Source of the DNA: Sediminibacillus dalangtanensis
GTDB lineage: Bacteria > Bacillota > Bacilli > Bacillales > Amphibacillaceae
DNA: 64,000 bases
NCBI RefSeq assembly: GCF_017792025.1
Contig: NZ_CP046956.1
Span: 1,860,001 to 1,924,000, forward strand
Reading direction: 5' to 3'
The position numbers were made by a program, and so were the translations under genes. The notes beneath the pieces are model-generated. The model saw only the letters and a program-made list of their open reading frames with translations, was not told the origin of the DNA and made no database searches. This document shows, one piece after another, positions 4,954 through 27,311 of this stretch (positions are counted from its first letter, which is position 1; every line of letters begins with the position of its first letter).

Positions 4954-5091
4954 TTTTTTCATACAAAATCCCTTTATTTTTAGTATTAGTAGTTGATATA
5001 ATAAGTAAATTGGAGATACCTTTATGGTGATAGGTTCCGGACAGATACATAAAAAGGAACGACAGTTTTTTCAAGGAAGGAGCTTCTGTAA

Positions 5092-25015: not shown

Positions 25016-25207
25016 GTGTTATTTATCAAGTATGTAGGTTTTGTGCTGATAGCCGCTTTGGTATTGGCCGTCACAAAGAATTTTCAAGAGATATACGATT
25101 TTTCTTCCATATGGTTATTTGTTTTCAATGTTTTATTGTTGGGGTATTTCGCATTCTTGGTAGTATTTCCGCTTCCTGAAAACAAAAAGCGAAACACTGC
25201 TAACTAA
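25016..25207 (+). CDS. Small two-segment membrane protein (uncertain start)
   Basis: An open frame of up to 63 residues with two hydrophobic stretches (YVGFVLIAALVLAV and WLFVFNVLLLGYFAFLVVF) and a basic tail. I do not recognise a family. A good GGGAGG ribosome site is present at 25011, but the only upstream in-frame standard start, GTG 25016, overlaps it; the true start may be a non-standard codon a few codons later. It converges on lexA and shares a bidirectional terminator with it, which favours a real gene. Confidence 0.45.
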   Translation: MLFIKYVGFVLIAALVLAVTKNFQEIYDFSSIWLFVFNVLLLGYFAFLVVFPLPENKKRNTAN

Positions 25208-25252
25208 ATTTATGGATAACGTAAACACATATAGATAGAAGATCATTCTAGA

Positions 25253-25289
25253 AAGAAAAAAACCAAATCTGATGATTTGGTTTTTTCTT
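25253..25289. terminator. Bidirectional terminator between the small membrane protein and lexA
   Basis: A stem of about 16 bp, AAGAAAAAAACCAAATC against GATTTGGTTTTTTCTT, with a 4-nt loop and T-runs on both strands. Confidence 0.88.
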
Positions 25290-25295
25290 TACTTT

Positions 25296-25919
25296 TTACT
25301 GGATATGTCGATATAGACCTATTACTTTTCCTAGGATCGAAACATTATTGAGAATGATTGGTTCCATTGTTGCATTTTCAGGTTGTAAACGAATATGGTC
25401 TTTTTCTTTAAAGAAGCGCTTAACGGTGGCCTCTCCTTCTTCAGTCATGGCCACGACAATTTCCCCATTTTGAGCGGTTTGCTGTTGTTTGACAATTACC
25501 ATGTCCCCATCCAGTATTCCTGCTTCAACCATACTTTCTCCCTCGATAATCAATACAAATATATTATCATCCGGATTAGCTATTGTGCCGGGGAGTGGCA
25601 CATACTCTTCGATGTTTTCCACTGCTGTTATTGGTATCCCTGCCGTTACCTTCCCGATAACGGGAGCGAAAGTGGCTTCCCCGGCAGGAATTTCGTTTGC
25701 CTCTTCCAAACTGAGCACCTCAATGGCGCGAGGTTTGGTAGGATCTCTTCTGATAAACCCCTTTTTTTCCAACCTCGATAAATGGCCGTGCACAGTAGAA
25801 CTCGATGCAAGTCCGACAGCCTCTCCTATTTCCCTTACAGAAGGCGGATAGCCTTTATCCAAAACCTGTTCTTTAATATATTCTAAAATTGCCTGCTGCC
25901 TTTTTGATAGTTTTGTCAT
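25296..25919 (-). CDS. lexA: SOS repressor LexA (DinR)
   Basis: A 207-residue SOS repressor. The N-terminal winged helix ([35 protein letters not shown]) is followed by the self-cleavage site Ala-Gly in [11 protein letters not shown], the catalytic serine in [13 protein letters not shown] and the catalytic lysine in GEATVKRFF. RecA filaments trigger cleavage. A longer frame is open upstream, but ATG 25919 follows GAGGTG and matches the usual N-terminus (205 residues in B. subtilis). Three LexA boxes in the divergent promoter region imply autoregulation. Confidence 0.97.
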
Positions 25920-25981
25920 TTGTGTAACACCTCGGACATAGTATTTATTGTGAATATTATACCATGCATGGCATGTATATA

Positions 25982-25995
25982 CAAACACTCGTTCG
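25982..25995 (-). promoter_or_regulatory. LexA box proximal to lexA
   Basis: Read on the reverse strand, CGAACGAGTGTTTG matches the DinR/LexA consensus CGAACRNRYGTTYC at 13 of 14 positions. It lies about 60 nt before lexA and probably controls lexA itself. Confidence 0.75.
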
Positions 25996-26004
25996 AAAAA
26001 AATG

Positions 26005-26032
26005 TTGACAAGAACCTATGTTCGTATATAAT
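26005..26032 (+). promoter_or_regulatory. LexA-controlled promoter of the SOS operon
   Basis: TTGACA, 16 nt, TATAAT drives rightward transcription into the micropeptide-yneB-ynzC genes. A LexA box fills the spacer. Confidence 0.85.
26011..26024 (-). promoter_or_regulatory. LexA box in the SOS promoter spacer
   Basis: AGAACCTATGTTCG on the + strand is the exact reverse complement of the box at 26046. It sits between the -35 and -10 elements, so LexA binding would block RNA polymerase. Confidence 0.88.
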
Positions 26033-26045
26033 AAAAGTATAAACA

Positions 26046-26059
26046 CGAACATAGGTTCT
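26046..26059 (+). promoter_or_regulatory. Downstream LexA box
   Basis: CGAACATAGGTTCT, identical to the box at 26011 in inverted orientation and placed about 35 nt from it, just past the likely transcription start. Confidence 0.87.
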
Positions 26060-26081
26060 AATTATTTGGGAGGCGTATAAA

Positions 26082-26174
26082 ATGTTTCAAAAACTTTCGA
26101 AACTAGACCTTTTCTATTTAACCTTATTTATTTTGACTTTAGGATTAATGTATTATTCAATGGTCACCATCTAA
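26082..26174 (+). CDS. SOS-controlled 30-residue single-pass membrane peptide (YneA position)
   Basis: A short gene of 31 codons (30 residues and TAA), starting ATG after a well-spaced GGGAGGC site. The product begins MFQKLSKLDL, with two lysines, then a hydrophobic stretch FYLTLFILTLGLMYYSMV that would span the membrane once, and ends TI. It is the first gene after the LexA-controlled promoter and is followed by yneB and ynzC. In B. subtilis this place is held by yneA, a 105-residue division inhibitor with one membrane segment and a LysM domain. I infer, but cannot show, that the peptide is an SOS membrane effector, perhaps of cell division, comparable in size to Caulobacter SidA. A YneA remnant is the main alternative, although no decayed LysM sequence is visible. 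Confidence 0.72.
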   Translation: MFQKLSKLDLFYLTLFILTLGLMYYSMVTI

Positions 26175-26891
<717 letters not shown>

Positions 26892-26903
26892 GATATGTAC
26901 AAG

Positions 26904-26936
26904 ACAAGTTCGGTTCTGTCTGAACTTGTTTTTTTG
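26904..26936 (+). terminator. Terminator after yneB
   Basis: An 8-bp stem ACAAGTTC/GAACTTGT with a 10-nt loop and a T7 run. Some read-through into ynzC would be needed if ynzC has no promoter of its own. Confidence 0.85.
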
Positions 26937-26995
26937 TTTCAAGAATCTGTTTTATGGAAAAACAAGAACTATAAATTAATTTAAAGGAGTATCTT

Positions 26996-27232
26996 ATGCT
27001 TTCAAAAGATAAGTTGAATAGAATCAATGTACTTGCTAAAAAGGCAAAAGAAGAAGGGTTGACTGCTAAAGAAAAGCAGGAACAACAATCATTGAGGGAA
27101 GAGTACTTGAAAAATGTCCGGAAATCCTTTAAAAACCAATTCAAGAGCATGACAGTGGTTGATCCGGAAGGAAAGGATGTCACTCCCCAAAAAGTAAAAG
27201 ATTTAAAACAGCGGGAGAAAAACAATCATTGA
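26996..27232 (+). CDS. ynzC: YnzC family protein (DUF896)
   Basis: A 78-residue, highly charged helical protein. The N-terminal half, LNRINVLAKKAKEEGLTAKEKQEQQSLREEYL (seen as two helices), is the DUF896 hairpin; the tail is lysine-rich. The molecular role is unknown. In B. subtilis the gene belongs to the SOS-induced yneA-yneB-ynzC operon. An AAAGGAG site precedes the ATG. A terminator lies between yneB and this gene, so its SOS control may be weaker here. Confidence 0.9.
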   Translation: MLSKDKLNRINVLAKKAKEEGLTAKEKQEQQSLREEYLKNVRKSFKNQFKSMTVVDPEGKDVTPQKVKDLKQREKNNH

Positions 27233-27249
27233 GAAGGAAGCCTTTTTTG

Positions 27250-27311
27250 ACAAGCATTCCAGCATGAAATTATAATGGACATGTTGAAATGCTTGTTTGT
27301 TTTGTTTTTTC
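27250..27311 (+). terminator. Terminator after ynzC
   Basis: A 17-bp stem ACAAGCATTCCAGCATG/CATGTTGAAATGCTTGT with one mismatch and a 13-nt loop, followed by TTGTTTTGTTTTTTC. Confidence 0.85.

Follow-up and report, generated by a model that had tools for sequence, protein, structure and literature searches.

A 30-residue membrane peptide behind LexA boxes at the yneA position of Sediminibacillus dalangtanensis and its relatives, a candidate LysM-less descendant of the division inhibitor YneA

The segment of the Sediminibacillus dalangtanensis genome analyzed here (64,000 nucleotides, hereafter the window) carries a gene for a membrane peptide of only 30 residues. With LexA boxes in front of it, lexA on one side, and yneB on the other, the gene occupies the position of YneA. 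We lean toward the view that this peptide is a LysM-less descendant of YneA, in which the FtsW-binding helix has been kept alone and acts as an SOS division inhibitor. The lack of a LysM domain sets the peptide apart from YneA proper, and descent from YneA is the best-supported reading: sequence comparison and phylogeny favor a shortened descendant, with the N-terminal helix kept and LysM lost, over an unrelated replacement, and the case for homology is moderate.

The gene (26082-26174, plus strand; MFQKLSKLDLFYLTLFILTLGLMYYSMVTI) is an ATG-started frame of 30 codons, preceded on the same strand, 8 bases 5' of the ATG, by the ribosome-binding site GGGAGG (26068-26073), as read from the sequence. 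The promoter, also on the plus strand, matches the consensus at 12 of 12 bases (TTGACA at 26005-26010, a 16-base spacer, and TATAAT at 26027-26032); promoter-like sites number 5 in 401 bases, against a shuffle mean of 2.1. When LexA boxes are scored against CGAACN4GTTCG, with mismatches counted over 10 bases, three sites, to which no strand is assigned, show a single mismatch each: one within the promoter spacer (26011-26024, AGAACCTATGTTCG), one just 3' of the expected transcription start (26046-26059, CGAACATAGGTTCT), and a box-like site (25982-25995, CAAACACTCGTTCG) that probably serves the promoter of lexA itself. Judged by these boxes, the peptide gene would be under SOS control; a genome-wide count of perfect boxes, with 4 sites against 9 in the reversed control, is uninformative. 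The divergent repressor gene lexA (25296-25919, minus strand) encodes LexA_DNA_bind and Peptidase_S24 domains, and behind the peptide gene follow, both on the plus strand, yneB (26214-26891), encoding a serine-recombinase-domain protein (Resolvase, PF00239) that is 94% identical to YneB of Sediminibacillus halophilus, and ynzC (26996-27232; DUF896, PF05979). A first-pass annotation had described the locus in just these terms, as a 30-residue frame with two lysines and one membrane-spanning stretch, provided with a good ribosome site and a LexA-blocked promoter and followed by yneB and ynzC, and all of this stands. On the other side, a hydrophobic ORF of 63 residues with a GTG start (25016-25207 of the window), which belongs to no Pfam family, adjoins lexA.

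The same annotation had made conservation of the frame in relatives a test of its reading, and the frame indeed recurs in 87 loci, compiled as two sets (52 and 35) with some genomes in common. A ribosome-site-like word of at least 4 bases precedes the peptide in all 87, and so do LexA-box-like sites with at most 2 of 10 mismatches, 2 to 4 of them within the 140 bases upstream; about 0.05 per locus would be expected by chance, as estimated by hand under the assumption that all bases are equally frequent. In one genome (G052, locus L032), the peptide, promoter, and LexA boxes are kept 5' of yneB, and an adjoining lexA was not found. Codon analysis covered 85 of the 87 loci, which yield 72 different nucleotide sequences and 65 different peptides. 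For the 42 close pairs, those whose DNA identity is 85% or more, pN/pS is 0.11; it rises to 0.43 in the band of 50-65% identity, the bands leaving out 61 pairs below 50%. The recurrence in 87 loci, the ubiquitous ribosome-site words, and the low pN/pS among close pairs put the frame beyond chance, and the codon comparison indicates that selection on the peptide at the amino-acid level is strong.

The architecture of the peptide is simple: an N-terminal K-x-D motif (lysines at positions 4 and 7, K4 and K7, with the acidic D9 following), then a single hydrophobic helix with which the peptide ends. Among the 72 distinct DNA sequences, D9, F16, and Y24 are invariant, Y12 and a K or R at position 7 are each found in 71, and L20 in 68. 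Conservation follows a helical period, falling on one face, with 243 of 10,000 shuffles as strong (547 of 10,000 when position 9 is left out). None of the 65 distinct peptides contains K, R, D, E, or H at positions 10-24, or K, R, D, or E at positions 25-30. AlphaFold2 models the peptide alone, and hence is silent on any partner, as a single helix spanning residues 7-29 (mean pLDDT 89.7); by prediction, this is a small membrane peptide with a single transmembrane (TM) helix. Searched against Pfam, the 30 residues match no family, so that there is no LysM domain, and they match none of the NCBIfam families either, the YneA model NF010723 not exceeding its cut-off.

The distribution of the peptide and that of LysM-containing YneA are mutually exclusive. 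We sought yneB in 101 genomes from the GTDB family of the window (f1) and from other GTDB families (f2, f7, f32, and f36 among them), found matches (E <=0.001) in 94, and, having set aside 10 genomes (7 without a yneB match and 3 with distant recombinases only), compared 91 lexA-yneB junctions, 57 in f1 and 34 in other families. A peptide of 27-34 residues lies 5' of yneB in 49 of the 57 f1 genomes that have yneB; junction peptides lacking a strict ribosome site were picked out by hand reading, and one genome (G035) was counted from its profile match, the lexA side not being in view. The other eight f1 junctions, which count against our favored reading, hold neither the peptide nor YneA (G006, G011, G012, G028, G034, G040, G044, and G054; loci L055, L059, L064, L068, L072, L078, L089, and L092), and a LysM protein was found at none of the 57. 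Outside f1, the 34 junctions comprise 24 with YneA, each of which also exceeds the NF010723 cut-off, four with the peptide (one genome each in f2, f7, f32, and f36), four with LysM-less proteins of 59-91 residues (G062, G065, G080, and G093; no Pfam LysM match), and two with nothing. The presence of these longer proteins at the yneA place in four further lineages (L088, L094, L097, and L076), again with no LysM match in Pfam, suggests that LysM has been lost there repeatedly. In a second set of 64 loci, the peptide is present in 35, and a pattern scan of the remaining 29 gave 14 with a LysM-type protein and 15 with neither. The carrier genera include Sediminibacillus, Virgibacillus, Oceanobacillus, Lentibacillus, Terribacillus, Cerasibacillus, Halobacillus, Thalassobacillus, and Pontibacillus.

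Profile searches extend the same picture. Run against 299 genomes drawn from the order, a hidden Markov model (HMM) of the peptide finds matches with E <=0.01 in 41; 37 of these fall below 1e-5, every one in f1, f2, f7, f32, or f36, and the four weak matches are probably due to chance. Within f1, 137 of 159 genomes contain a match (E <=0.003), that in G386 being no better than 0.0028. Conversely, the NF010723 cut-off is exceeded in 28 of the 101 genomes, in one (G061) only via a LysM repeat protein, and in 0 of 61 f1 genomes. The possibility of a YneA elsewhere in the genome of the window was rejected: the best NF010723 match, to a 276-residue frame, scores 40.4 bits against a cut-off of 60. 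The first-pass annotation had also made the lack of a full YneA homologue elsewhere in the genome part of its test, and at this cut-off the lack holds; the position, the boxes, and the absence of YneA above the cut-off agree with its phrase 'replacing YneA'. The part of that phrase that implies an unrelated replacement is less favored than a shortened descendant of YneA.

The argument for descent combines the shared slot and LexA boxes, the exclusive distribution, profile alignment, SK-type N-termini, and HMM matches. Aligned start to start with YneA N-termini by hhalign, the peptide profile scores 16.8 (probability 48-56%), a score that shuffling the columns reached in 1 of 200, 4 of 300, and 6 of 300 cases. 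Among 31 sequences, the peptide HMM detects the LysM-containing YneA of G076 (SKIDMTFVAAF) at E 1.7e-5, and the YneA proteins of G076 and G069, both with LysM, have SKIDMTF and SKRDLSY, respectively, near their starts. Of the LysM-less junction proteins, the HMM weakly matches those of G065 (60 residues, E 4e-4) and G062 (E 0.012), and leaves the short ones of G080 and G093 unmatched; at E 0.05 or better, only 4 of 26 YneA N-termini are found, and the B. subtilis-group YneA comes in at E 1.4. According to a study of YneA and FtsW (PMC13396833), the B. subtilis protein loses nearly all of its toxicity through any of the substitutions K5A, E6A, F10A, V11A, and F14A, and loss-of-function mutants fail to localize to midcell. 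When SKESIIFVGLF of the B. subtilis group is set by hand against SKLDLFYLTLF of the peptide, K5, F10, V11, and F14 fall on K7, Y12, L13, and F16, so that four of the five critical residues are matched. This correspondence is a lead, not proof, because E6 has no counterpart, the offset was chosen by hand, and hhalign prefers another (gapless profile score of 5.1 at its offset vs 0.6 at the hand-set one). In a LexA tree of 89 genomes, a branch with SH-aLRT support of 99 separates 24 LysM, 4 short LysM-less, and 2 empty junctions from 51 with the peptide and 8 with none; the tree was built by a quick method with a midpoint root, without L032 and G035, and 49 of its 86 inner branches are weak. Six of the eight peptide-less f1 genomes cluster in it (SH-aLRT 94).

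Comparison with known systems helps to define what kind of protein this may be. YneA of B. subtilis (NF010723) shares with the peptide the lexA-yneB slot, the LexA boxes, a single N-terminal helix, and, in the B. subtilis group, the SK-x-x-x-x-aromatic-x-x-x-F pattern, but has about 105 residues with LysM, whereas the peptide, which matches no NCBIfam or Pfam family, lacks both LysM and any extracellular part. SidA of Caulobacter (29 residues), compared by description, is likewise a bare SOS-induced membrane helix of similar size. TisB of E. coli, also 29 residues and compared by description, is another short SOS-induced membrane peptide; TisB-type toxins have a charge-striped amphipathic helix and an antisense RNA partner, whereas the helix of our peptide is charge-free at positions 10-30 and shows no such striping. 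SosA of Staphylococcus aureus (77 residues), again compared by description, is an SOS-induced small single-TM protein without LysM (PMC6851548), but depends for its activity on an extracellular C-terminal part, which the peptide does not have. For SidA, AF3 models suggest contact with FtsW TM7, the contact also envisaged for our peptide, but on the opposite side of that helix (PMC13396833); SidA further differs in belonging to another phylum. On two features, the SOS boxes and the small, single predicted TM helix, the peptide may be placed with the small SOS membrane division inhibitors of the SidA/SosA kind.

In the mechanism that we envisage, DNA damage would trigger LexA cleavage and production of the peptide, which would insert in the N-in/C-out orientation; its conserved face (D9, Y12, F16, L20, and Y24) would then pack on a divisome membrane protein, most likely TM7 of FtsW, and septal peptidoglycan synthesis would pause until repair is complete. 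Division inhibition is plausible, and should not be taken for granted, because the 2026 FtsW paper (PMC13396833) concludes that inhibition by YneA requires the LysM domain: in B. subtilis, the LysM-less YneA-TM reaches midcell and binds FtsW, yet division goes on. Either this clade has altered the helix and its FtsW, so that the helix alone, or with a further partner, would do the work that in B. subtilis requires LysM too, or the peptide has another role. We inspected FtsW, choosing the paralogue by rank and position (for G066, a candidate only). In seven peptide genomes, FtsW differs at TM7 and is about 7 residues shorter behind it; position 206, a YneA-resistance site in B. subtilis, is T, T, P, P, T, P, and M in the seven, which counts against the proposed mechanism. 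The stretch behind TM7 decides nothing, because two genomes with LysM-containing YneA also lack those residues, and no clear pattern of co-variation between TM7 and the peptide emerged among the 14 of 16 chosen genomes that could be aligned (G018 and G050 were not recovered).

These considerations bear directly on a reading, rather unlikely in our estimation, under which the peptide is a remnant that only docks on FtsW or on proteases; like YneA-TM in B. subtilis, it would not itself stop division but would fine-tune the divisome or the recovery. The binding of FtsW by YneA-TM without inhibition (PMC13396833) is in line with this, and the shortened FtsW of the seven peptide genomes would be as well, but for the same shortening in the two LysM-YneA genomes; strict conservation and the LexA boxes argue instead for an SOS output, and no YneA above the cut-off is present to be modulated. 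That the peptide is a different kind of SOS membrane effector, a TisB- or holin-like one that perturbs the membrane and leads to dormancy or self-killing after damage, strikes us as unlikely. Its size, SOS boxes, and single helix resemble those of TisB, and the copies in prophage-like regions described below are compatible with a lytic role, but the uniform lack of charge along the helix speaks against it, as do conservation on one helical face, which suits a specific partner, the lack of any Rfam match within 25200-27300, and a genomic place that follows YneA. A leader ORF whose translation regulates yneB, the peptide itself being non-functional, would fit the short distance from its stop to yneB, which in 84 of the 87 loci lies between -17 and 46 bases; it is a very improbable explanation given selection at the amino-acid level, peptides that are intact at 142 bases from yneB in Cerasibacillus (a double entry) and at 536 bases in Oceanobacillus sp. 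J11TS1, and copies away from yneB in other elements.

Those copies go beyond what the first-pass annotation contained. In f1, 19 of 159 genomes have more than one HMM match, and we examined 16 extra places: 14 in 12 f1 genomes, of which G437 and G037 contribute two apiece, one in f7 (G320), and one in f2 (G201). The 16 do not include the extra matches of G360, G376, G392, G409, G417, G022, and G047, nor a second one of G388 or a weak match in G341. Eleven of the 16 (L171-L173, L179, L182, L184-L187, L189, and L190) are prophage-like, lying within a few kb of matches to PHROG integrase, anti-repressor, DnaB helicase, primase, RecT, or SbcC-like families; four of these (L179, L187, L189, and L190) may be other integrating elements, because integrase was the only gene tested there. 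The prophage-like copies have 25-31 residues and lie near position 5000 in most loci (3228 in L179); the one in L185 is broken by a stop. L181, L183, and L188 were judged by eye, L183 as prophage-like; the copy in L178 is near a DNA-invertase family gene and that in L180 near a phrog_2467 gene. The copies in L178, L180, and L188 (at about 5000) are near HTH or invertase/resolvase-type genes, possibly in plasmid-like elements. None of the 16 has a LexA box with at most one mismatch within 300 bases upstream, and LexA-like sites with two mismatches precede two of them (L172 and L178). In several, the start of the peptide roughly coincides with the end of a gene of about 90 residues; two such genes were tested and match phrog_14041 and phrog_6048, to which no function is assigned. 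With tblastn, two prophage copies found nothing in INPHARED beyond one chance-level match in two records of a single phage, and one copy found no match among plasmids.

Viral contigs hold similar peptides. Among viral loci drawn by neighboring genes (108, the final draw being 80 of 90), the HMM gave two clear matches, in L256 (4.8e-11; identical to a sequence used in training the HMM) and L255 (7.7e-7), and weak ones in L279, L264, and L274 (E 0.004-0.013). Inspection of the ORFs in 10 loci revealed a single-helix peptide starting at the end of such a gene of about 90 residues in five (L255, L256, L264, L279, and L312), a short helix ORF with that gene not seen in three (L257, L258, and L274), and no such peptide in two (L259 and L265). 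The IMG/VR single-helix peptides in L255 (3101-3193), L256 (2867-2950), L264 (3138-3224), and L279 (3611-3700) share a similar early-gene slot 5' of an SbcC-like gene. The phage peptides may either descend from the chromosomal one or have converged on it. It is conceivable, if speculative, that prophages of the same hosts use these look-alikes among their early genes against host septation. A more far-reaching proposal, which we put forward tentatively and hold to be doubtful, is that in five GTDB families the bare 30-residue helix would by itself be the whole SOS division inhibitor, a LysM-free core aimed at FtsW, and that temperate phages of these hosts would hold host septation with divergent versions of it, encoded in an early-gene slot that follows a phrog_14041/6048-like gene; checkpoint and phage would then share a single minimal module.

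In the titles and abstract openings of the open-licence PMC literature, we found no description of a LysM-less YneA. The clade that carries the peptide is a group of salt-loving relatives of Bacillus, and here the whole clade, along with four further lineages with longer proteins, has in the LexA slot a membrane protein with no detectable LysM. The gene for it in the clade is conserved and yet falls outside the models of Pfam and NCBIfam. The look-alikes in prophages suggest a strategy common to host and phage. With a natural peptide of 30 residues at hand, the notion of a minimal inhibitor of FtsW becomes testable.
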